30,484 nucleotides of DNA from a virus. Positions within the stretch are counted from its first letter, which is position 1. The number at the start of each line of letters is the position of its first letter. Below the pieces are notes generated by a model. It ran no database searches. It saw nothing but the letters and a program-made list of their open reading frames with translations, and was not told the origin of the DNA. Positions 1 through 8,306 of this stretch are shown one piece after another. The position numbers and the translations under genes were made by a program. The stretch covers positions 1 through 30,484 of IMG/VR virus record IMGVR_UViG_3300032516_000118; one strand, 5' to 3'.

Positions 1-205
1 ATCAAGTTCTGTTGTGCCGCTCGGTATCGCGTGGTCACGTGCCGTCAGGTCCAGCCCTTCCGTCTCGTCTCATGCCGTGGGGTGCCGTGTAGCTGCTATG
101 TTTCGTTTTGTTACGTCTCGCGGCACTGTTTGGTCCGGTGATGTCTCGTTCTGTGTCGCACCGTCCAGGTTCGCCGCGGAGTCGCGTCGCGTCAAGCACG
201 GTGAA
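1..205. repeat. 5-bp-periodic GT/AC tract (non-coding)
   Basis: On the plus strand GT dinucleotides (occasionally GC) recur every 5 bp: at 24, 34, 39, 44, 49; then 62, 67, 77, 82, 87; then 100, 105, 110, 115; then 128, 133, 138, 143, 148, 153, 163; then 181, 186, 191, 201. Several of the missing steps are filled by GC (29, 54, 92, 120, 158, 173, 196). Blocks are separated by 8-bp instead of 5-bp steps (54 to 62, 92 to 100, 120 to 128, 173 to 181), each following a GC. On the minus strand this reads as NNNAC pentamers. A 5-bp period does not match codons, so coding is unlikely. The tract lies 3' of the leftward operon and runs to the window edge, so it may continue outside. Confidence 0.75.
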
Positions 206-214
206 GCCGCCGGG

Positions 215-1009
215 TTATTTTTTCTCCTTTTCCTTTCGTTTTATCTCGGGGATATCGTAGCGGAGGGAGAGGACGCGGAACTTGCCGTTTTCGAGGGCTT
301 TGACGGAGCCGAGGCCGATGATGGGTATGGTAGCGAAGAGGAGTTTGAGTGCGGTTTCGTCGAACTTGAGTGGGGGGACGCGGAATTGGAAGGCGAAGCG
401 GGTTCCGGGGAGGGCGATTTCGGAGTCGTGGACGATGCTGACGCGGCCCTGTGCGCCGTGGACGGATCCCATGTACTTCTTGAACTGGGTGGGCGCTGCG
501 AATGGCGGATCTCCGGTATAGAGGTGGATATGTCCGGCGTGTTCGCAGGCTTTGGAGGCGCCGATGGGTCGAATGGAGCCGAGGTGGGACATGTCGCCTT
601 TGGCGCCCTTTTTTGACGAGAAGAGGTCGACGCGTGTGGCGGCGCACTTCAGGCAGGCTTTGATTTGCCAGTCGCCGAGCCAGGGTCCGGCCTCGCAGTG
701 GCGGATGGAGCAGACGGCGTATGACTCGGCCTCCTTGAGTTCGCCCTCGGGCGCCTGCGCCTCGCCGTTCGGGGTTGGGGCCCCCGTTGATGGTTTGGCG
801 AGTTCTTCGCCTTTGATGCGGGCGACGGCGGCGGGGATCTCATCGTCGGTGAGTTTGAGGTGGAATCGGCAGAAGGCTTCGAGTCCTTTGTCGTCGGCTG
901 GTTGTCCGCCGACGAAGTCGGTAGTGAATTCGCATTCGGCTTCGGCGACGAGGGTGATGCCGTTGTAGATGTCTCTGAGTTCTTGGGGTTCGACGTTTTT
1001 CCAGGTCAT
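215..1009 (-). CDS. Cys/His-rich phage protein, possible RAMP-like C-terminal fold
   Basis: A 264-residue protein of unknown function, last gene of the leftward operon. The ATG at 1009 is preferred to the in-frame upstream ATG at 1054 because AAAGGAT lies just before it. Residues 95-165 hold C100, H104, C105, C119, C122, C155, H157, H160 and H162, a likely zinc site. Residues 72-95 are a low-complexity linker. The C-terminus has a predicted beta strand (203-211), a helix (217-227) and a glycine-rich hairpin (G232, G234, G242-K-F-R-V). That order and the G-x-G...GKF loop resemble the second half of RAMP (Cas5/6/7-type) ferredoxin folds. This is pattern reading only. A Lys/Glu tail ends the protein. 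Confidence 0.8.
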   Translation of the reverse strand: MTWKNVEPQELRDIYNGITLVAEAECEFTTDFVGGQPADDKGLEAFCRFHLKLTDDEIPAAVARIKGEELAKPSTGAPTPNGEAQAPEGELKEAESYAVCSIRHCEAGPWLGDWQIKACLKCAATRVDLFSSKKGAKGDMSHLGSIRPIGASKACEHAGHIHLYTGDPPFAAPTQFKKYMGSVHGAQGRVSIVHDSEIALPGTRFAFQFRVPPLKFDETALKLLFATIPIIGLGSVKALENGKFRVLSLRYDIPEIKRKEKEKK

Positions 1010-1029
1010 GTTTATCCTTTCGTTGTTAG

Positions 1030-1042
1030 GGGGGTCTCCCCC
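1030..1042. other. G5/C5 hairpin in intergenic leader
   Basis: Five G, three bases (TCT) and five C form a perfect 5-bp stem with a 3-base loop about 20 bp upstream of the start of the gene ending at 215. On the minus-strand transcript it precedes the Shine-Dalgarno of that gene. There is no U-tract, so it is more likely a structured leader or translational control element than a terminator. Confidence 0.4.
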
Positions 1043-1045
1043 ATG

Positions 1046-1093
1046 GTTCAGCACTGGTGCTGTTCAGCCTTGGCGCTGTTCAGCGCTGGCGCT
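1046..1093. repeat. Three tandem 16-bp palindromic repeats
   Basis: Three head-to-tail 16-bp units (1046-1061, 1062-1077, 1078-1093) each begin GTTCAG and end GGTGCT or GGCGCT. Units 1 and 3 contain perfect 5-bp inverted repeats (AGCAC/GTGCT and AGCGC/GCGCT); unit 2 is imperfect. They sit between two leftward genes, directly next to the stop codon at 1095-1097. This is the only sizeable intergenic gap in the part of the leftward operon below 7.7 kb. Confidence 0.65.
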
Positions 1094-1094
1094 G

Positions 1095-1826
1095 TTACGT
1101 GATGGTTCTCCAGGAGTAGAGGACTGGGGCGGGTAGGGTGAGGAGGAGTTTGGCGACGTCTTTGGGGCCGCGTATGGGTTCGTCGTTGGCGTGGCCCTGT
1201 TCGGCGCGCCAGGCGGAGTAGGCGTGGGCGATGTCGGTCCAGACTTCGGAGGGGATGGTGAGGGTGTTTTTTTCCCAGGCGAAGGTATCGTTTTCGTAGA
1301 GCTGGGAGTTGGGGAGTCGGAAGGAGAGGCGATCGGGGTGGCGAGTGTCATCGGGTCCGAGGGTTCGGAGTCTGAAGACGGCGGTGCCCAGGTGGTTGCG
1401 GATGACGACGAAGTAGGGTTTGCCGCGGCTGGTAAATCGGCATGGGGAGAGGCCGTAGAAGAGGAAGACGTGTTCTTTAGCACCCCAGGGCCCGTGTTTG
1501 GTGTAGGCGAGCCCTTTGATGGAGCCGGAGGCGAGGAGGTCACCGGAGGCGGTTTGGAGTTCCCAGGTGAAGGGGGGCCCGGGTGGTCGGGGTTCGGCGG
1601 TCGCCTTTCCGGTGGTCCCGGCGCTGAGGGGGAAGGGGTCTGTCGTGAGGCTATCGAGGTGAGCGCTGACGGGTCCCCCGAGGCTATAGCCTGGAGTTGC
1701 TCCGGGGGTTCCCTCGAGTTTGCCGGGTGATCTGAGTGCCCCGTTTGAGAGTCGGACATGATAGAGGGTGGCCTGGATGGTATCGATGCGGGATTCGAGT
1801 GAGTCGAGTCGGTCTTCGATCTTCAT
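1095..1826 (-). CDS. Hypothetical protein, paralogue of the 7134-7721 gene
   Basis: A 243-residue protein of unknown function. Residues 1-25 look like a short coiled coil; 30-85 are Gly/Pro/Ser-rich. Residues 86-206 match the product at 7134-7721 in three collinear motifs: F-x-W-E-x-x-x-A-x-G-D-x-L-A-x-G (86-101), IRN-x-x-GT-x-V-x-RL (142-153), and DT...EN/EK...A-x-AY-x-x-(W/Y) (180-206). The two genes therefore share a domain, probably by old duplication. The ATG overlaps the stop of the upstream gene (ATGA at 1823-1826) and follows a good AAGGAG-type ribosome site. Confidence 0.85.
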   Translation of the reverse strand: MKIEDRLDSLESRIDTIQATLYHVRLSNGALRSPGKLEGTPGATPGYSLGGPVSAHLDSLTTDPFPLSAGTTGKATAEPRPPGPPFTWELQTASGDLLASGSIKGLAYTKHGPWGAKEHVFLFYGLSPCRFTSRGKPYFVVIRNHLGTAVFRLRTLGPDDTRHPDRLSFRLPNSQLYENDTFAWEKNTLTIPSEVWTDIAHAYSAWRAEQGHANDEPIRGPKDVAKLLLTLPAPVLYSWRTIT

Positions 1827-2215
1827 GCGATCTCCTTGTGGGTTAGGAACTGCGCGCGAGGCGCCAACCGCGGTATGCTGGGGGATAATTTTTTTATCTC
1901 GTTGGGGATCAAGATGCCTGTTTGCGGCCCATCGGGTACGCGTTCGGACACGTAGGCTTCCCAGGCGGCGATGGAGGAGAAGTCGATGCCGTAGACGCCC
2001 GCGACGGAGGAGAGGCTCTCGGTTATCGCTCGGATCTCGATCGTTTGGAACTCGAGCCAGCAGGAGGGCGAGATGAGCCAGGTGTTAGGCGGGAGCGGGA
2101 GGGTTGCCAGTACAGGTGCTGCGCGGAACCGGGCCCAGGCCTCGATGGCTTTGAAGGGGATGACGAGTGGGAAGAAGAGTCCGATGGCGGACTTGAGGAA
2201 CTGCCTGCGGATCAT
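1823..2215 (-). CDS. Putative Tat-exported small protein
   Basis: A 130-residue protein of unknown function. It begins MIRRQFLKSAIGLFFPLV. Residues 3-8 (RRQFLK) match the twin-arginine consensus R-R-x-F-L-K and are followed by a hydrophobic stretch (9-26), so the N-terminus looks like a Tat signal peptide. The rest has no motif I recognise. The start at 2215 is preferred to longer in-frame options because AAGGGAG precedes it and it forms an ATGA overlap with the upstream gene. The product would act outside the cytoplasm if exported. An ordinary N-terminal membrane anchor is the alternative. Confidence 0.75.
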   Translation of the reverse strand: MIRRQFLKSAIGLFFPLVIPFKAIEAWARFRAAPVLATLPLPPNTWLISPSCWLEFQTIEIRAITESLSSVAGVYGIDFSSIAAWEAYVSERVPDGPQTGILIPNEIKKLSPSIPRLAPRAQFLTHKEIA

Positions 2216-2400
2216 GGGGTGTCTCCCTTCGTCCCTTCCTTCCGTACATACCGCACCGCGCGGAGCTTCAGCCCCGGCGATCGCTTCCGTTCCGCGGCGA
2301 TCTCGTCCCGTGCCTGCTCGCGCGTAAGGCAGGCGAAGCCCGAGAGCAATTCCCAGCCGATACCAGGCGTATTGACTTCGATCATCCAGGTGTCGCTCAT
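2212..2400 (-). CDS. Small hypothetical protein (62 aa)
   Basis: A 62-residue protein of unknown function with no membrane segment. It has a W-x-I-E-V strand at 5-9, a helix rich in Glu, Arg and Ala (26-40), and a basic strand (45-55, LRAVRYVRK). It looks like a compact alpha/beta fold. A strong AGGAGG site lies just upstream of the ATG at 2400, and the stop overlaps the next gene in an ATGA. Confidence 0.8.
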   Translation of the reverse strand: MSDTWMIEVNTPGIGWELLSGFACLTREQARDEIAAERKRSPGLKLRAVRYVRKEGTKGDTP

Positions 2401-2409
2401 CGTTACCTC

Positions 2410-2490
2410 CTACACCAGATACGCCACCGCCAGGAGCCATACCGCCAAGCCGAGGACGAAGCCGTAGAGCATAGCGAGGAGGAGCTTCAT
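2410..2490 (-). CDS. 26-residue membrane peptide
   Basis: A micro-ORF beginning MKLLLAMLYGF and ending LAVAYLV. Almost the whole peptide is one hydrophobic helix with a single N-terminal lysine, so it is a predicted single-pass membrane peptide. It has a strong GGAGGAGG site about 8 nt upstream, encoded within the AEE codons of the preceding gene, and an ATGA overlap at 2487-2490. The next gene begins 9 nt after its stop. The signals and the fit into the coupled gene chain support expression. The function is unknown. Confidence 0.6.
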   Translation of the reverse strand: MKLLLAMLYGFVLGLAVWLLAVAYLV

Positions 2491-2720
2491 GAGGTTGCCT
2501 CCTCCGCTTCGCGGATGGCGGATTGCAGCATTTCGAAGGCGTACCAAAACTCGCAGCATTCAACACCGTGAGTAGCTCCAGCAGTCTCTTCTATCTCCTT
2601 CGCCGCCGCGAGCAGGCGATCGTACTTGCCACGCACCACATCTAACTCGTGTTGTAGGCTGAGTGCGCGATTGCACGTCTCTTGAACGTCTATTGCTAGA
2701 CTGTCAGTCAACACACACAT
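2487..2720 (-). CDS. Small AIREAEE-family protein (member 1)
   Basis: A 77-residue member of a five-gene family in this window. It shares two blocks with the others: K-Y-D-R-LLAAA (32-40) and a C-terminal AIREAEE (68-74). It is helical, with a possible coiled coil at 20-45 and a CC pair at 55-56. The ATG at 2720 overlaps the end of the Tyr/Ala repeat gene by 13 nt and has only a weak ribosome site, so it is probably translated by re-initiation. Its 3' end carries the ribosome site of the next gene. Function unknown. Confidence 0.75.
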   Translation of the reverse strand: MCVLTDSLAIDVQETCNRALSLQHELDVVRGKYDRLLAAAKEIEETAGATHGVECCEFWYAFEMLQSAIREAEEATS

Positions 2721-3373
2721 TCTTTCGTCTCTTCTCTCTCGAACCGCGCCGTGCGTTCGGTGATCGTGATTAAGTCGAAGCCCGCCGCCTGCGCCGCATT
2801 CGCCGCCGCATACGCCGCCGCATACGCCGCATACGCCGCATTCGCCGCCGCATACGCCGCCGCATGCGCCGCATTCGCCGCCGCATACGCCGCCGCATAC
2901 GCCGCATACGCCGCATACGCCGCATACGCCGCATACGCCGCCGCATACGCCGCATACGCCGCCGCATACGACCGATCTGCACCCGACACCCAGGCGTCTG
3001 CCCAGGCGATCCACGCCGCGTTGTGATACATGAAACGAGCGCATTCGATGGCGTAGTACACGCGCTGCATCATCGTCAGCACCGGCACAGCCAGCTCTTC
3101 AACGAACGTCAATGCCTTGCAGCCGAGTTTGAGTTGCTTGTCGCGTTTGATCGGCTCCTCGGCTTCGGCGAGATAGAGACGTGGACAAGAAAAGTTGGCA
3201 TGCACCGGGTTATGCAGCACGGCAAGCAACGGGTGCTCGTATGCGTGAATCCAGTGCTCGCTACACAACTCGGCGGAGGCGGAGTGTGACGCAACGGCGA
3301 ACCGCTTCCCGAGTTCCCACTGGTGGCCGTTGTACGTTCGCATATTCTCGTCGGTGAGCTTGTAAACTTTCAT
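2708..3373 (-). CDS. Conserved phage protein with Tyr/Ala repeat helix
   Basis: A 221-residue protein. Residues 1-130 form a conserved-looking domain (MKVYKLTDEN start; ELCSEHWIHAYEHPLLAVL; an NPVHANF motif; a W-x-x-W-x-x-x-W segment near 120). I recall this domain type from other phages as uncharacterised. Residues about 135-197 are 18 units of Tyr (sometimes Asn, His or Gln) plus two or three Ala. These give 3-4 spacing, so a helix would show a continuous Tyr stripe. A short charged tail follows. The start at 3373 has GGAGGTGAAGG just upstream and an ATGA overlap; longer in-frame starts lie inside neighbouring genes. Function unknown. Confidence 0.85.
   Translation of the reverse strand: MKVYKLTDENMRTYNGHQWELGKRFAVASHSASAELCSEHWIHAYEHPLLAVLHNPVHANFSCPRLYLAEAEEPIKRDKQLKLGCKALTFVEELAVPVLTMMQRVYYAIECARFMYHNAAWIAWADAWVSGADRSYAAAYAAYAAAYAAYAAYAAYAAYAAAYAAANAAHAAAYAAANAAYAAYAAAYAAANAAQAAGFDLITITERTARFEREETKECVC
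2782..2970. repeat. 9/12-bp tandem repeat array encoding Tyr-Ala units
   Basis: The array is made of GCCGCATAC (9 bp) and GCCGCCGCATAC (12 bp) units on the plus strand, with a few T-for-A and G-for-A variants. Both unit lengths are multiples of 3, so gain or loss of units keeps the minus-strand reading frame. The plus strand and the other minus frames are also open through the array, which explains the Ala/Tyr- and Arg/Met-rich shadow frames. Confidence 0.9.
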
Positions 3374-3660
3374 TCCTTCACCTCCTCCGCTTCGCGGATG
3401 GCGTCTCGCAACACCGACATCGCAATAGCCACCCTTGCGGGGATCGCTTCGTCCTCGAGAATGTCGACTGCGCCCTCCTCCGCGGCGAGTAGGCGATCGT
3501 AACGAGCTTGGAGTTTGTCGCGCTCGCCAACCACTTCTTCGACCGCCGCCCCGTGCTCGCACCATGCGCACGATGGGTCTCGCAGCTTTCGAGACGTGTA
3601 GCCTTCGTGGCAGGTGCAGGAACCGACGAGCTCCATGGCCTTCTTTCGTGCTGGGGTCAT
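3370..3660 (-). CDS. Small AIREAEE-family protein with N-terminal Cys cluster (member 2)
   Basis: A 96-residue protein. The N-terminal part has C15-x-C17-H18 and C31-x2-C34-x-H36, a likely zinc-binding knuckle. It is followed by a helical region with the family block ARYDRLLAA (52-60) and the terminal AIREAEE (87-93). The ATG at 3660 has GGGAGGCGAAAGG upstream and an ATGA overlap with the preceding gene. The zinc part differs between family members while the C-terminal part is shared. Function unknown. Confidence 0.8.
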   Translation of the reverse strand: MTPARKKAMELVGSCTCHEGYTSRKLRDPSCAWCEHGAAVEEVVGERDKLQARYDRLLAAEEGAVDILEDEAIPARVAIAMSVLRDAIREAEEVKE

Positions 3661-3863
3661 CCTTTCGCCTCCCTCGCGGTGAGAACGAACTTCTTGCGTT
3701 GGCCCTCGCGGATAGGTCCGAAGAGCTTGCACGCGTACGTGTAGCAACAGTCCACTTGTCCCGAGTAAGCGTCGGCTTCAATCCAGACATCCCCTTCGCT
3801 TCCATGGCCGTTGCTCTTCCCTCGCACAACGTTTACCGTGAGCTGCCGTTTCTTGCGCGTCAT
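3657..3863 (-). CDS. Small basic hypothetical protein (68 aa)
   Basis: A 68-residue, beta-rich protein of unknown function with Lys/Arg patches at both ends and three cysteines (C39, C40, C45). It sits between two AIREAEE-family genes with ATGA overlaps on both sides. Its ribosome site (GGAGGAGGGG) comes from the 23-bp cassette in the upstream gene. It does not carry the AIREAEE ending itself. Confidence 0.8.
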   Translation of the reverse strand: MTRKKRQLTVNVVRGKSNGHGSEGDVWIEADAYSGQVDCCYTYACKLFGPIREGQRKKFVLTAREAKG

Positions 3864-4093
3864 TCTTTCCCCTCCTCCGCTTCGCGGATAGCGACCGCAA
3901 GCCGCTCAATTGCCTCGGCAGCCGCTCTCGGCATTACGTCCTTGATCTTCTGATACTCCACGGCTACCTTCGCCGCCGCGAGTAGGCGGGCGTGACGCTC
4001 TTGGGTGTCGAAGCAGTCGGCGATGTAGCATTTGTGGCAGTAGTGGTGTGTCGCCGGTTCTTTACCACAACAGGTGCAGCCGTATTCGTTCAT
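3860..4093 (-). CDS. Small AIREAEE-family zinc-ribbon protein (member 3)
   Basis: A 77-residue protein. C6-x2-C9 and C19-x2-C22 (with C8 and C27 nearby) form a compact zinc ribbon. The rest is helical, with ARLLAAA (35-41) and terminal AIREAEE (68-74) shared with the family. The ATG at 4093 is chosen over a longer in-frame start because it has a GGAGGGGAAGG site and an ATGA overlap. Function unknown. The layout suggests a binding head joined to a common helical tail. Confidence 0.8.
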   Translation of the reverse strand: MNEYGCTCCGKEPATHHYCHKCYIADCFDTQERHARLLAAAKVAVEYQKIKDVMPRAAAEAIERLAVAIREAEEGKE

Positions 4094-4326
4094 GCCTTCC
4101 CCTCCTCCGCTTCGCGGATGGCGGCTTCGAACTTGCACCAATTACGTGCGACTCCTGAAGACTCGAAGATTGCGTTGCGATGTGCCTTGTCGTCGCACAT
4201 CACCGCATTCGCCGCCGCGAGCAACTTCTCGTACTTCGCCTTATACTCGCACGTCTCTTCGTGCCTTTGTCGTTGCGCTTCCGCGTCGGCGGAATGTGGA
4301 CCAGTGACGGGAAAATAGTCATTCAT
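4090..4326 (-). CDS. Small AIREAEE-family protein (member 4)
   Basis: A 78-residue protein with a variable N-terminus (1-28), the family block AKYEKLLAAA (29-38) and a C-terminal AAIREAEEGKA. It has cysteines at 26, 44 and 64 but no CxxC. The ribosome site AAAGGAAGGA lies ahead of the ATG at 4326. Its start overlaps the end of a proposed 19-residue micro-ORF by 8 nt, and its stop overlaps the next start (ATGA). Function unknown. Confidence 0.8.
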   Translation of the reverse strand: MNDYFPVTGPHSADAEAQRQRHEETCEYKAKYEKLLAAANAVMCDDKAHRNAIFESSGVARNWCKFEAAIREAEEGKA

Positions 4327-4378
4327 GCTTCCTTCCTTTCTGTATCTTGCATGCCTTGCAGAATACGGCGCTGCTCAC
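4319..4378 (-). CDS. Possible 19-residue CxxC micro-ORF
   Basis: A GTG at 4378 overlaps the stop of the upstream gene as GTGA and has a strong GAGGAGGG site 6 nt away. It opens a 19-residue frame with FCKACK in the middle and a basic tail (KGRKHE). Its stop overlaps the ATG of the next gene by 8 nt. It fills what would otherwise be the only 48-nt gap in this part of the chain. Against it: it is very short and uses GTG. Treat as plausible, not proven. Confidence 0.35.
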   Translation of the reverse strand: MSSAVFCKACKIQKGRKHE

Positions 4379-4647
4379 TTCTTTCCCTCCTCGGCTTCAT
4401 TGATACAGCACTCAGCAAACGCCATCTCGGCGGGGTTGTCGTGTGCTGCGGCAAACTTTCGGAACGTTCTCTTCAGTCGATCACACTTTGCGCGAAGCGT
4501 TGTGATCTCCTCTGCTGCGTCTTCAAGCAACCCGGTTGGGTCAGTGCAAGACTGTAGTGCTCCGTATTGAAACAGCGCAGCCAGGTCGTCTATCGCCTTC
4601 GACAATAACTCTTTTCCCTTCCGTTGCTCGACGGTCTTATCGCTCAT
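4375..4647 (-). CDS. Small AIREAEE-family protein, diverged (member 5)
   Basis: A 90-residue, largely helical protein. The family blocks are degenerate: RAKCDRLKRTFRKFAAA (52-68) replaces the LLAAA block and INEAEEGKK (82-90) replaces the AIREAEE ending. The DNA at its 3' end is a diverged version of the 23-bp cassette. The ATG at 4647 has AGGAGAC upstream and an ATGA overlap; the longer in-frame start at 4695 lacks these. Function unknown. Confidence 0.8.
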   Translation of the reverse strand: MSDKTVEQRKGKELLSKAIDDLAALFQYGALQSCTDPTGLLEDAAEEITTLRAKCDRLKRTFRKFAAAHDNPAEMAFAECCINEAEEGKK

Positions 4648-4889
4648 TCTTTTGTCTCCTCTGTCTTCGGTGGGTACTCTATGCAGTCGCGACAAATGAA
4701 GGCTGGTTTAAGTTCTTCGTCTCGGTATCTGTAGCACGTTTGCGTCTTGAAGACTGGTCGTTCGGTGGTTCCACAGAGTAGGCAGCCTTCCCAGCGGAAC
4801 ACGCCGGTTTCGCCGTGGTACCAGCCGACGCTTTGCAGTAGCTGTCGCTTCCAACTGCGTACCAGCCCCAATTCGTGGTTCATGTTCAT
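4644..4889 (-). CDS. Small zinc-ribbon protein (81 aa)
   Basis: An 81-residue protein. C36-x2-C39 and C66-x2-C69, with C52 between, give a four-cysteine zinc ribbon in the C-terminal half. Residues 1-30 are basic and aromatic, ending in a possible short strand. The ATG at 4889 forms ATGA with the upstream stop; a second in-frame ATG lies two codons on and has equally good ribosome-site spacing. Function unknown. It could bind nucleic acid or protein. Confidence 0.8.
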   Translation of the reverse strand: MNMNHELGLVRSWKRQLLQSVGWYHGETGVFRWEGCLLCGTTERPVFKTQTCYRYRDEELKPAFICRDCIEYPPKTEETKE

Positions 4890-5044
4890 TCCGTCCTTTC
4901 TGTATCGACTGCGATCCAGCGTTCACCTTCGCCGGTGGCGCTCATCCCCGTCGTGGCGTCCTTGAATCCGTGGCATTGGTATTGTTCGAACCTTCCGTTG
5001 TCACGAAGAACGTAATGGTGGACGCCGAGTAGTTGTCCGCTCAT
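4886..5044 (-). CDS. Small hypothetical protein (52 aa)
   Basis: A 52-residue protein of unknown function, probably beta-rich (GVHHYVLRDNGRFEQYQCHG), with a single cysteine. The ATG at 5044 is supported by GCAGGAGGACGC and an ATGA overlap with the upstream gene; the longer in-frame frame is a shadow of other genes. The W-I-A-V-D-T-E ending suggests a final strand. Confidence 0.75.
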   Translation of the reverse strand: MSGQLLGVHHYVLRDNGRFEQYQCHGFKDATTGMSATGEGERWIAVDTERTE

Positions 5045-5358
5045 GCGTCCTCCTGCCCGAGTTTGTCCCACCTGAGTCGGCAGAAGACCTTGCCGGGTGG
5101 GGCCTCTTCGGCGAGTCCGAGGTCGAGGAGGACACCGATGGCCTCTTCCTCGGCAGACATGAAAGAGTGCGAGATGCGGCCATCCTTCCCGGTGGTGAAG
5201 AACTGGTTGACCATGGACATGAGGGCGCCCGTGACGCGCAAGAGTTGCTTCTGGAGGTCGCAGACGGTGCAGATGCAGTCGGTACCCGCGGCCCCGGCGG
5301 TGCCCCCGCACCAACGGCAGGGTTCAGGCGCCACTGGCGCAGTGCTTGCTTCCGGCAT
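5041..5358 (-). CDS. Small zinc-binding protein (105 aa)
   Basis: A 105-residue protein. C14-x2-C17 and C28-x-C30-x2-C33 form a zinc knuckle, followed by a helix (35-55) and a C-terminal alpha/beta part with an acidic helix AEEEAIGVLLDLGLAEE. The ATG at 5358 has GAAGGAGG upstream and lies 35 nt inside the preceding gene. This is the longest overlap among the small genes. Function unknown. Confidence 0.8.
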   Translation of the reverse strand: MPEASTAPVAPEPCRWCGGTAGAAGTDCICTVCDLQKQLLRVTGALMSMVNQFFTTGKDGRISHSFMSAEEEAIGVLLDLGLAEEAPPGKVFCRLRWDKLGQEDA

Positions 5359-5563
5359 CGGGTTCCTCCTTCCGGGCGTAGACGGCGATGCGAAACTTGC
5401 GGCCCCCCGCCATGACCTGGTTGAGTTTGACGCGGAGCTTCTCGACGGCGTGCTTGTCGAGGCTGACGCCGACGCCGTGGGGAGTCAAAGGGAGGGGGCC
5501 CCAGGCCCCATCGGCGGGTGCGCCGAACCAAGCCTCGATGACGTAGAGGGGTGTCTCTTTCAT
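5324..5563 (-). CDS. Small hypothetical protein (79 aa)
   Basis: A 79-residue protein that looks like a compact alpha/beta fold: a strand with W12-F-G, a loop with D-G-A-W-G (18-22), a helix (DKHAVEKLRVKLNQVM, about 36-51) and a basic strand (GGRKFRIAVYARKEE). The start at 5563 is chosen over 5608 because of the ATGA overlap and a GGAGAGAAG site. Function unknown. Confidence 0.8.
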   Translation of the reverse strand: MKETPLYVIEAWFGAPADGAWGPLPLTPHGVGVSLDKHAVEKLRVKLNQVMAGGRKFRIAVYARKEEPDAGSKHCASGA

Positions 5564-5949
5564 GCCTTCTTCTCTCCGAACGTGGCGTTCTGTTGCCGCG
5601 CCTTCCACTCGTAGGTGATCCCGTTTCTGAGAACGACAACGTGCCCCTGGCGCACCTCGGCCTTTTCTATCGTCTCAATCATGTCGTGGACGAGCTCGAT
5701 GAGTTTATTGCGGCTTTCGATGAGCTCGAATTTGTCCTTACGGTATTCCTCGAGCTTCTCTTGCATCGCGGCTCGACGTCTCGTGAGGTCGTCGCCGCGG
5801 GCGCTGAGTTCTGCCTGCGTCGGATTTTCGTAGTTACACTTCGGGCACGGGGAGACAGAGAGAAGGGCGTTGTCCGAGGGAAAGAGGACGCTCCCGGAGA
5901 CCATGAGCCCGGTTCCGCAGGCTTGGCACTGGATGACGATGCTGCTCAT
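5560..5949 (-). CDS. Zinc-ribbon plus coiled-coil protein (129 aa)
   Basis: C8-x2-C11 and C35-x2-C38 form an N-terminal zinc ribbon. Residues 45-95 are a long charged helix (TRRRAAMQEKLEEYRKDKF), probably a coiled coil that dimerises the protein. The C-terminus is short and basic. The ATG at 5949 has CAAGGAGGAAG upstream and an ATGA overlap. Function unknown. The design fits a small scaffold or nucleic-acid-binding adaptor. Confidence 0.85.
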   Translation of the reverse strand: MSSIVIQCQACGTGLMVSGSVLFPSDNALLSVSPCPKCNYENPTQAELSARGDDLTRRRAAMQEKLEEYRKDKFELIESRNKLIELVHDMIETIEKAEVRQGHVVVLRNGITYEWKARQQNATFGEKKA

Positions 5950-6317
5950 TCTTCCTCCTTGAGGCTTTCTGTGGGCGCCCTCCCTGGGGTGGCGCCGTTC
6001 CGTGTCTCCCAGACGATGCGTTGTCGGCCCGACTTCCCGGCCTTCCGTCGAGTCGTTCGCCGAATGAGCCCGAGGGTCTCCATGGGGCAGAACCGCGGGC
6101 TTATGGACTGTAGGTCGAGGCCCAGGTGGTCTGCAACCTCCTCCGAGGTTCCGAAGCCGCCCAGGTTCCGCAGGGCCTCGTAGACGCGAGTCTCAAGGGC
6201 GGAGGCTTTCCGGCCGCGCATCTGGTCGGCGGCTTCGTGCGATGTATCGGGGTCGTCGCCGCGGGCGTACGCGGCGCCTTCACCGAAGGGGAGGTCGGGG
6301 ACGTTGTCGCGCGTCAT
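5946..6317 (-). CDS. Winged-helix DNA-binding protein
   Basis: A 123-residue protein. The N-terminal DPDTSHEAA (22-30) followed by ETRVYEALRNLGGFGTSEEV (42-61) and ADHLGLDLQSISPRFCPMET (62-81) is the pattern of a phage winged helix-turn-helix family. The recognition helix would be about 70-80 and the wing RRTTRRKAGKSGRQRIVWE (86-104). It may regulate the leftward operon in which it lies or act on host DNA; no target is visible. A weak AGAGGAAG site precedes the ATG at 6317 and ATGA overlaps lie on both sides. Confidence 0.8.
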   Translation of the reverse strand: MTRDNVPDLPFGEGAAYARGDDPDTSHEAADQMRGRKASALETRVYEALRNLGGFGTSEEVADHLGLDLQSISPRFCPMETLGLIRRTTRRKAGKSGRQRIVWETRNGATPGRAPTESLKEEE

Positions 6318-6799
6318 GGCCGATGCTTCCTCTTCTTCTCCACGACGGCCCCGCCCTTACTCACGAGTTCGTTTGGGGGTGGAACGGGTAGCGGCGGTGC
6401 CGCCAGCGGCGGTGCCGCCAGCGGCGGTTGGGGCCGGGTCGGCCGCTCGAGGTCGGGCTGGGGCCGTTGCGGGGGGTCCGGCGGGAGCTCGACCATCTCT
6501 ACGGGCTCGCCCTTGGGGGCGGGGGCGGGCGCGGGCGGCTCCGGGGGCCCCTTCCAGGCGGCGACCAGCTCGTCGTATGTCGCGGCCCTGAGTGCAATGC
6601 CGCCGATCACGCGGAGCTTCATCTCGACCTCGACCCCTTCGTCCTCGACGACCTCCTTGATCTTCCTGACGGCCGACTTGAGGATGCTGCCATAGACGGC
6701 GAGCTTGGCGAGCCGCTGGTTGAGCTCAATGACGTCTCTGCGTGCGGCCTCACAGGCCTGCTTCAGGGCCCCGTATGCTTCTGCCTCCTCGAGCGTCAT
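6314..6799 (-). CDS. Helical protein with long proline-rich tail
   Basis: A 161-residue protein. Residues 1-85 are helical and charged (EEAEAYGALKQACEAARRDV and a KIKEVVEDEGVEVE segment). Residues 86-148 are Pro/Ala-rich and include a repeated LAAPPLAAPPLP. A basic end (KKRKHRP) follows. The start at 6799 has GAAGGTGCGAGG upstream and an ATGA overlap; the longer in-frame start at 6943 lies inside the upstream gene. Function unknown. The tail is probably unstructured and may bind partners. Confidence 0.8.
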   Translation of the reverse strand: MTLEEAEAYGALKQACEAARRDVIELNQRLAKLAVYGSILKSAVRKIKEVVEDEGVEVEMKLRVIGGIALRAATYDELVAAWKGPPEPPAPAPAPKGEPVEMVELPPDPPQRPQPDLERPTRPQPPLAAPPLAAPPLPVPPPNELVSKGGAVVEKKRKHRP

Positions 6800-7137
6800 C
6801 CTCGCACCTTCAGTTCTGCGGCCAAGGCTTCGCATTCGGCTTTGGCGTGTTCGCGGTTGAAGATGCTCGGGTCGTCGAAGATGTCCCCATAGTGGAAGCC
6901 GAACGTCCAGCCGTCTGTCTCCATGTCGGCGAAGGTGATGCACCGGCCGACGTGGTCGGGGACGTCGCGCTTCTCACTGAGAGGATGCTTCTCGGGGATT
7001 GTGACATACCCGCACCAGTACCCAGTCTCAAGGGGCTCGGGTAGTTTGTGCGGCGAGGACAGGCGCCGGAAGATGATGGTGGCGATATACCCCACCTCGG
7101 TCGTCCAGCTCTCGTATTCGACTTCGGTGTTTTTCAT
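6796..7137 (-). CDS. Conserved phage protein of unknown function (113 aa)
   Basis: A 113-residue protein with GYWCGYVTIPEKHPL (39-53) and DGWTFGFHYGDI (75-86). This pairing of a GY-x-x-P-x-x-HPL motif with a GW-x-FGF-x-x-x-D motif occurs in a widespread uncharacterised phage family in my recollection. The C-terminal helix (NREHAKAECEALAAELK) also fits. The ATG at 7137 forms an ATGA overlap; an in-frame GTG five codons upstream is less likely. Function unknown. Confidence 0.8.
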   Translation of the reverse strand: MKNTEVEYESWTTEVGYIATIIFRRLSSPHKLPEPLETGYWCGYVTIPEKHPLSEKRDVPDHVGRCITFADMETDGWTFGFHYGDIFDDPSIFNREHAKAECEALAAELKVRG

Positions 7138-7721
7138 CGTCGTTTGCTCCACTTATTCGGGACGCGTGCGGTCAGGAGGCCGACGCAGTTGACGACGTAC
7201 TTATGGGTGAGTCGGTAGTTGAGGTTGAAGTATTTCTGATAGGCCTCGGCGATCTGCTGGAAGATAGGCCCGTCGAGGTAGACGTTCTCAACGCCCATCG
7301 TGTCGCCGTCCGAGAGGAACCGCGATGAGATAGTCATGGCGGTCTCTTCTCGCGCCGGAACGGGCTCTTTGCGGGAGTACGCCTTGAGTCTGAGGACGAC
7401 AGTGCCTCTGATGTTTCGGATGATGAGTTCGGCGATCTCGCCGCCGTGGACACAACGGTCGACCGTTGTCCCGTAGGGCCGGTATTGCTTGTGTCGCGAG
7501 TTCCACCTGAAGTCTTCGATCTCTCCCTTGGCGAGGATGTCTCCGTTTGCCGAGTGCGCTTCCCAGTTGAACGCCTTCGGCTTGTAGACCGGGTAGTCGA
7601 CGTAGACGGTGCGTTTCCGCGACTTCGCTTGTTTGAAGTTGAGCCGCTTCATGATTTTCTCGAGCGCGGAGCCGACCGCCCGCGCTCTTTGCCGCGCCCG
7701 CTTCTTCGACAACTTCTTCAT
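7134..7721 (-). CDS. Hypothetical basic protein, paralogue of the 1095-1826 gene
   Basis: A 195-residue protein. Residues 1-50 are strongly basic (KKLSKKRARQRARAV; KQAKSRKRTVY) and replace the Gly/Pro linker of its paralogue. Residues 51-164 share the three motifs described there: FNWEAHSANGDILAKGEI (51-68), IRNIRGTVVLRL (101-112) and a DT...EN...AEAYQKY block (140-164). The shared part is probably beta-rich. AAAGGATAGG precedes the ATG at 7721. The gene is separated from its upstream neighbour by only 11 nt. Function unknown; the basic start could bind nucleic acid. Confidence 0.85.
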   Translation of the reverse strand: MKKLSKKRARQRARAVGSALEKIMKRLNFKQAKSRKRTVYVDYPVYKPKAFNWEAHSANGDILAKGEIEDFRWNSRHKQYRPYGTTVDRCVHGGEIAELIIRNIRGTVVLRLKAYSRKEPVPAREETAMTISSRFLSDGDTMGVENVYLDGPIFQQIAEAYQKYFNLNYRLTHKYVVNCVGLLTARVPNKWSKRR

Positions 7722-7732
7722 GACCTATCCTT

Positions 7733-7960
7733 TCATTCAAAAGCACAGCCCATGGCGTACATGATGGCGGTTACGATGAGGGAGCCGATGAAGATGGTCA
7801 AGCAGAAGACGAGTCCGATGGCGGCGGCGGCCTGGCCCCGGTTCTCGCGGTCGACTTCCGCGATTGCCTGCTTACACGTCTTCTGGGCCTCGAGGTACCG
7901 CTCGTTCTGTCGGCGCTCTTCGAGAATCACTCTCAGCCGAAGTAGTATGCCTTGTCCCAT
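7733..7960 (-). CDS. Single-pass membrane protein (75 aa)
   Basis: A 75-residue protein. Residues 1-43 form a charged helix (RVILEERRQNERYLEAQK), 45-70 a hydrophobic membrane segment (AAAAIGLVFCLTIFIGSLIV), and the end is short (GCAFE). The predicted topology is a cytoplasmic N-terminal coiled coil with a C-terminal anchor, as in some small holin-like or superinfection-exclusion proteins, but nothing specific identifies it. The ATG at 7960 has GAGAGGAGGAG upstream; longer in-frame starts are shadow sequence. Confidence 0.75.
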   Translation of the reverse strand: MGQGILLRLRVILEERRQNERYLEAQKTCKQAIAEVDRENRGQAAAAIGLVFCLTIFIGSLIVTAIMYAMGCAFE

Positions 7961-7973
7961 GCTACTCCTCCTC

Positions 7974-8306
7974 TCAGAAAGGCATGTCGCCCGGGGGCGC
8001 CGCATTCCCGTCGTCGGGCACGACGCTTTGGTTGTACTCGGCGACGATTGCGTCGCGCACCGCATCCTTCAGATCGCCCGAGAAGGTCACGAGCGAAACA
8101 TACTTCTTCTCGCCAGCCTTCGTGGTGTACTCCCGCGACGGACCGGCGACCCAAAGCTCTCCGTCCTTCTTCCCGAACAGCTTGCAGTCGTCGATCAGGA
8201 TGTCTCCAATCGCGACTTCGGCAACGGCGAGCCAGGACCCGCGGCCGTCAATCGGCCGTAGCTTGGTAACGATGACCTGAAAGAGACCCTCGTCTTTTTC
8301 GGTCAT
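7974..8306 (-). CDS. SpoVG-like protein with SSB-like acidic tip
   Basis: A 110-residue protein. Residues 11-91 match the SpoVG pattern: an opening strand VTKLRPIDG, a strand pair LAVAEVAIGDILIDDCKLF, the motif LWVAGPSRE (51-59), and a terminal helix (LKDAVRDAIVAEY). SpoVG is known as a small site-specific nucleic-acid-binding protein. The C-terminus ends PPGDMPF, resembling the acidic D-D-x-P-F tip by which SSB recruits repair and replication enzymes. GGAGGGAG precedes the ATG, and an ATGA overlap links it to the preceding gene. The SpoVG call is fairly secure; the tip function is inferred. Confidence 0.8.
   Translation of the reverse strand: MTEKDEGLFQVIVTKLRPIDGRGSWLAVAEVAIGDILIDDCKLFGKKDGELWVAGPSREYTTKAGEKKYVSLVTFSGDLKDAVRDAIVAEYNQSVVPDDGNAAPPGDMPF

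Follow-up and report, generated by a model that had tools for sequence, protein, structure and literature searches.

Features at the left end of the window

The DNA analysed here (the window) comprises all 30,484 bp of a virus record and includes genes for terminase, portal, head-maturation and tape-measure proteins. Its left end carries a tract of tandem pentamers that is convergent with a gene at 215-1009. Read on the plus strand, positions 16-198 resolve into blocks of the form GCN(NNNNN)7 or GCN(NNNNN)5, in which the pentamers mostly begin with GT. We describe these features in the terms of VIPR, a system that a 2026 preprint defines in its main description as a phage RAMP protein (Vipr) together with vrRNAs of tandem YNNGG pentamers (PMC13142463). 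Loci from other contigs are designated by L numbers.

1-198, plus strand: very probable 3′ part of a vrRNA-type guide array, (GT/GC/AT)NNN pentamers in blocks (autocorrelation, parse, and grammar in L002, L255, L256, L257 and L261)
11-18, 49-56, 87-94, 115-122, 153-160 and 191-198, plus strand: 8-nt units GTNNNGCN (sequence parse)
16, 54, 92, 120, 158 and 196, plus strand: GCN phase-shifters (3-nt insertions), at spacings of 38, 38, 28, 38 and 38
16-53, plus strand: block 1, GCC and seven pentamers, GCTCG GTATC GCGTG GTCAC GTGCC GTCAG GTCCA (parse)
54-91, plus strand: block 2, GCC and seven pentamers, CTTCC GTCTC GTCTC ATGCC GTGGG GTGCC GTGTA (parse)
92-119, plus strand: block 3, GCT and five pentamers, GCTAT GTTTC GTTTT GTTAC GTCTC (parse)
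120-157, plus strand: block 4, GCG and seven pentamers, GCACT GTTTG GTCCG GTGAT GTCTC GTTCT GTGTC (parse)
158-195, plus strand: block 5, GCA and seven pentamers, the next GCA lying at 196-198 (parse)
199-224, plus strand: terminator-like hairpin CGGTG-AAGC-CGCCG (199-212), then GGTTATTTTTT, at the array 3′ end on the GT strand
215-1009, minus strand: vipr homologue, 264 aa, ∼29 kDa, RAMP/Cas7-like with G-loop GLGSVKALENGKF, convergent with the array (homology and predicted fold)

The contig start falls inside the array, so that the 5′ part of the array is missing; with the array start off the contig, no promoter is visible. The first four pentamers of block 5 (161-180) are degenerate. No structured 3′ tail was recognised between the window blocks, the only candidate being the terminator-like hairpin at 199-212, which folds as drawn (z 0.19). 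Terminator-like sites on window 1-1200 number 2 against 2.8 expected, and the hairpin is thus no better than chance.

The initial annotation had described a 5-bp GT/GC rhythm over about 200 bp, with regular 8-bp jumps after GC. Both are borne out, the jumps by the six 8-nt units and the rhythm by lag-5 autocorrelation far above that of dinucleotide-preserving shuffles (n = 2000). Within window 1-205, GT-GT pairs at lag 5 number 17 against a shuffle mean of 4.9 (z 6.3, 0/2000), and those at lag 10 number 15 (z 5.6); when GT or GC is counted, the lag-5 value rises to 34 against 11.4 (z 7.9, 0/2000). Further strong peaks stand at lags 28, 33 and 38 (z 5.2, 5.4 and 7.4), the signature of 8-bp phase jumps every 5–7 pentamers. 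This tract has by far the strongest lag-5 GT or AC signal in the window, and nowhere else comes close. A plus-strand frame is open over 2-616, but translation of the tract was rejected and its non-coding status upheld, as all six frames are interrupted by stop codons in arrays of the same grammar (L002, L255, L256 and L257).

Related arrays and the gene at 215-1009

A first scan of viral contigs with the degenerate pattern (ACNNN)7AC matched at least 120 viral stretches, many of them more than once, which substantiates the earlier impression that similar stretches occur in other phage intergenic regions. The arrays seen are long runs of pentamers, in which two or three bases are fixed and two vary, broken by short constant resets. 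On the GT strand the fixed triplet varies by phage (GGT, TGT, GTC, GTT or GTG, then NN), as does the phase jump (+1 in L019, +2 in L090, +3 in the window and L002, +4 in L089 and L100). The VIPR arrays at L019 1675-2165 and L090 7990-8520 have 1-nt and 2-nt jumps, respectively, instead of the 3-nt GCN, indicating that punctuation length differs between phages. Other phage VIPR arrays (L045 880-1920, L051 2144-3408 and L108 2355-2909) have long constant inter-guide segments, such as GTGTTTATCACTCAGACAAGGAGGCTGTTTTTCCTGAC in L108 (AC strand); these segments are candidate tails or ribozymes. Pattern matches in genome contigs are a mixed set, mostly single, from which the Vipr HMM recovered L210 only.

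A second, grammar-based scan returned eight loci, among which L255, L256, L257 and L261 show the block grammar of the window. The form GCC GCTNN (GTNNN)n is common to these four and L002, whose array of ∼850 bp adjoins a relative of the window protein. Neighbouring blocks in L002 are near-duplicates that start and end at GCC, implying that GCC bounds the duplication unit. When units from six arrays are pooled (n = 396), 266/396 (67%) begin with GT, 16% with AT and 10% with GC. Position 1 is G or A, position 2 is T or C, position 3 is C-biased and positions 4–5 are nearly uniform, with entropies of 0.81, 0.81, 1.81, 1.98 and 1.99 bits for positions 1–5 and a consensus of RY(C)/NN. In-register block lengths in the six arrays cluster at 33, 38 and 43 nt with a peak at 38 nt, and blocks carry 5–8 repeats (7, 7, 5, 7 and 7 in the window).

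Strong tracts are associated with Vipr genes. In the positive control, Escherichia phage SUSP1 (KT454805), GGTNN arrays flank a 195-aa Vipr gene on both sides, on the vipr strand. An iterated HMM seeded with SUSP1 Vipr found 40 homologues among the open frames of the fetched loci. A homologue is present at 26/35 viral loci with strong tracts and at 1/39 with weak tracts (Fisher 2e-11), and all 38 homologues scored for distance lie within 581 bp of an array. Some strong-tract loci that lack a Vipr gene may have been cut short by their flanks. This association identifies the general phenomenon as VIPR arrays. PHROG 4652 (function not assigned) matches 22 of the 28 aligned Vipr proteins, and could be renamed Vipr; it does not match the window protein.

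The 264-aa window protein has no match in Pfam, NCBIfam, PHROGs or PADLOC, window 1-8000 has none by BLAST against phage records, and Rfam gave no match. No relatives were found in named phages or plasmids, and 392 Planctomycetota genomes yielded no more than weak, chance-like matches, none of them beside an array. The first relative found, in L002, shares 49% identity with the window protein, and that in L256 shares 38–40%. As in the window, the Vipr-like gene is convergent with the array in L256 and L257; in L255 it is divergent. The L257 protein forms a bridge, matching both the SUSP1-family Vipr HMM (1.6e-13) and the window-family HMM (6.5e-16). By hhalign, the window family (window, L002, L256 and L257) aligns with the Vipr family at a probability of 90.8 (E 1.2e-6) and with the Vipr relatives L019/L253 at 95.8 (7e-9); for comparison, unrelated window ORFs against two closely related profiles gave 0.13–0.95. 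With a 28-sequence profile that includes the window protein, the solved structure PDB 36pp (‘SUSP1 Vipr protein’) is matched at 2.7e-26, and weak matches to Cas7-11/Csm5 are also seen. In the PDB sequence search the window-family profile on its own falls short of SUSP1 Vipr; intermediates and profile-profile comparison carry the link.

The vipr gene retains an intact frame with conserved key residues; in the GLGSVKALENGKF loop, G232, G234 and G242 are shared by all four family members. AlphaFold modelling from the 28-sequence alignment gave a pLDDT of 77 and a pTM of 0.72 (pLDDT 37 with a 2-sequence alignment). Among the Foldseek matches listed, all are CRISPR RAMPs (Cmr, Csm3 and Cas7-11; 5.6e-6 and up), and VIA scored the AlphaFold model at Z 10–11 to Csm3 and kin. 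Since the alignment contained Vipr proteins, the fold supports the homology but is not fully independent proof of it. On profile comparison and modelled fold together, the gene at 215-1009 is a divergent Vipr.

Interpretation of the tract

We consider it highly probable that the tract forms the 3′ end of an array of guide RNAs (vrRNAs) belonging to a phage-encoded VIPR system. Tract and gene are most likely a further member of VIPR, which as a system is already known (PMC13142463); the view in the initial annotation that no function had been described for such stretches is outdated by that preprint. Its main description has the NN letters of vrRNAs recognise dsDNA with a 1-nt skip, silencing competing phages; the system has been proposed to predate CRISPR.

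By this guide-array reading, the array would be transcribed on the plus strand, and R-Y (mostly GT) with the C-biased third base would form a handle gripped by one Vipr subunit per pentamer. The last two bases (NN) would be the variable part, pairing with the DNA of the target, two letters being read per five. The convergent gene at 215-1009 would supply Vipr, and about seven units would make one block, with a phase-shifting GCN of 3 nt at its close. If it works as the SUSP1 system does, the Vipr-RNA complex may bind dsDNA of competing phages through NN pairing, with one base skipped per unit, and so repress their transcription. The plus (GT) strand is preferred as the informative and transcribed strand because SUSP1 vrRNAs lie on the GT strand, as do the terminator-like hairpins downstream of arrays (window 199-224; L016); the AC reading on the minus strand, as first put forward, is very probably to be corrected accordingly.

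Several lines bear on this code. When 53 guides were compared with 2.2 Mb at a 1-nt skip, there were 8 exact matches against 3 for shuffles, without a clear excess, and no target was found; viral contigs likewise gave no exact match to one long guide from L002. NN read with one skip resembles codon positions 1–2 (sense or antisense) best in five of six arrays, and in the window array, with 26 units only, it fits positions 2–3 slightly better. This fit is suggestive in its agreement with the wobble-skip rule given in the main description of PMC13142463. A guide may correspond to a single GCC block, or one vrRNA may span several blocks, as in the ‘staggered arrays with overlapping vrRNAs’ of the preprint.

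Like the SUSP1 (type II) system in the preprint's main description, the window locus has a phage RAMP gene beside intergenic tandem pentamers with fixed bases and a hypervariable NN. It differs from that characterised type in several respects. The consensus is RY(C)/NN rather than GGY/NN; the strict GGY is not seen in the window, but the preprint also admits a consensus related to GGY/NN. A vrRNA has 9–16 repeats in the clades of SUSP1 and P. fulva, followed in SUSP1 by an invariable structured tail (PMC13142463), whereas in the window GCN separates blocks of ∼7 repeats and no tail was recognised. SUSP1 Vipr is ∼20 kDa against ∼29 kDa in the window, and SUSP1 arrays lie on the vipr strand whereas the window array is convergent to vipr. 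It is possible, though short of probable, that these features mark a distinct VIPR variant, with a ∼29 kDa Vipr, continuous tail-less arrays, a GCC(GC) codeword that moves the phase once per ∼7 repeats and so punctuates guides with ∼14 readable bases, and an RY(C)/NN consensus. The likeness to Class 1 CRISPR RAMPs (Csm3/Cas7 of type III, Cas7-11) lies in the predicted fold (Foldseek 6e-6, Z about 10–11) and the G-rich loop. Unlike those systems, the window has no contiguous spacers and no cas genes recognised among the proteins scanned, and a tandem-repeat scan found no CRISPR array, the tract itself being degenerate pentamers.

The initial annotation had raised DNA bending or a protein that binds every half-turn, and GT steps at such spacing could form a ladder of protein sites in replication, partition or packaging, given that 5 bp is half a helical turn and the arrays are intergenic. 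We find this very unlikely. The 8-bp jumps (6-, 7- or 9-nt in other phages) break helical phase, variability at two bases of each unit is close to the maximum, and the arrays co-occur with a family of RNA-guided RAMP proteins. The period fits the repeat code of a guide RNA that a RAMP-type protein (Vipr) would read.

An RNA role was also among the options raised and is favoured here, but not in the form proposed, an unstructured NNNAC transcript: array stretches fold no weaker than shuffles, which argues against selection for lack of structure. The same result weighs against an unstructured leader or attenuator RNA bound by a Rho-rut-like or TRAP-like protein and regulating neighbouring phage genes. 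TRAP RNA targets, (G/U)AG-NN, do share a triplet with a 2-nt spacer, and hence the 5-nt period of the window array, and some arrays elsewhere end just before start codons (L053). However, the window triplet is unlike both (G/U)AG and YC-rich rut, the repeats are many more, with phase jumps and variable NN, and the protein is a RAMP. The array is moreover convergent to the gene in the window, L256 and L257 rather than running into it, and the Vipr association would be left unexplained; this reading is scarcely credible. A dead or decaying VIPR-type array left over at the contig end is unlikely, if less remote. The degenerate block 5 and other off-consensus units (CTTCC, ATGCC) would fit decay, but blocks 1–4 remain perfectly in phase, the vipr frame is unbroken and its key residues conserved, and AT and GC units occur at similar rates in the long arrays of L256 and L255.

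On the guide-array reading, raw sequence alone reveals that uncultivated phages widely carry an RNA-guided system described only recently, and lag-5 GT with phase jumps provides a simple search signature for VIPR. The punctuated blocks pose a testable question, namely how a guide end is marked where no tail separates one guide from the next. The differences in fixed letters from phage to phage (GGT, TGT, GTC, GTT, GTG and RYC) could reveal the way in which each Vipr lineage recognises its repeat.

Other features of the window

The gap upstream of the vipr start codon contains a 16-bp tandem repeat, GTTCAGCACTGGCGCT (3.2 copies, partly palindromic, window 1046-1096), which is possibly a vipr operator. 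An accessory vap gene was not identified; the neighbour at 1095-1826 (minus strand) has no Pfam or PHROG match and no relative in like loci. This gene, directly upstream of vipr, is paralogous to that at 7134-7721 (minus strand), with 27% identity over 122 aa (E 1e-10), and a vap role is possible. Small minus-strand ORFs at 2487-3044, 3370-3747, 3860-4141 and 4375-4695 share a C-terminal EAEEGKE/EAEEVKE-like motif and are apparently a paralogous family. Window 2782-2970 is an imperfect 21-bp tandem repeat rich in CGCCGCATA, which reads AAYAAY in one frame and GVCGVC in another.
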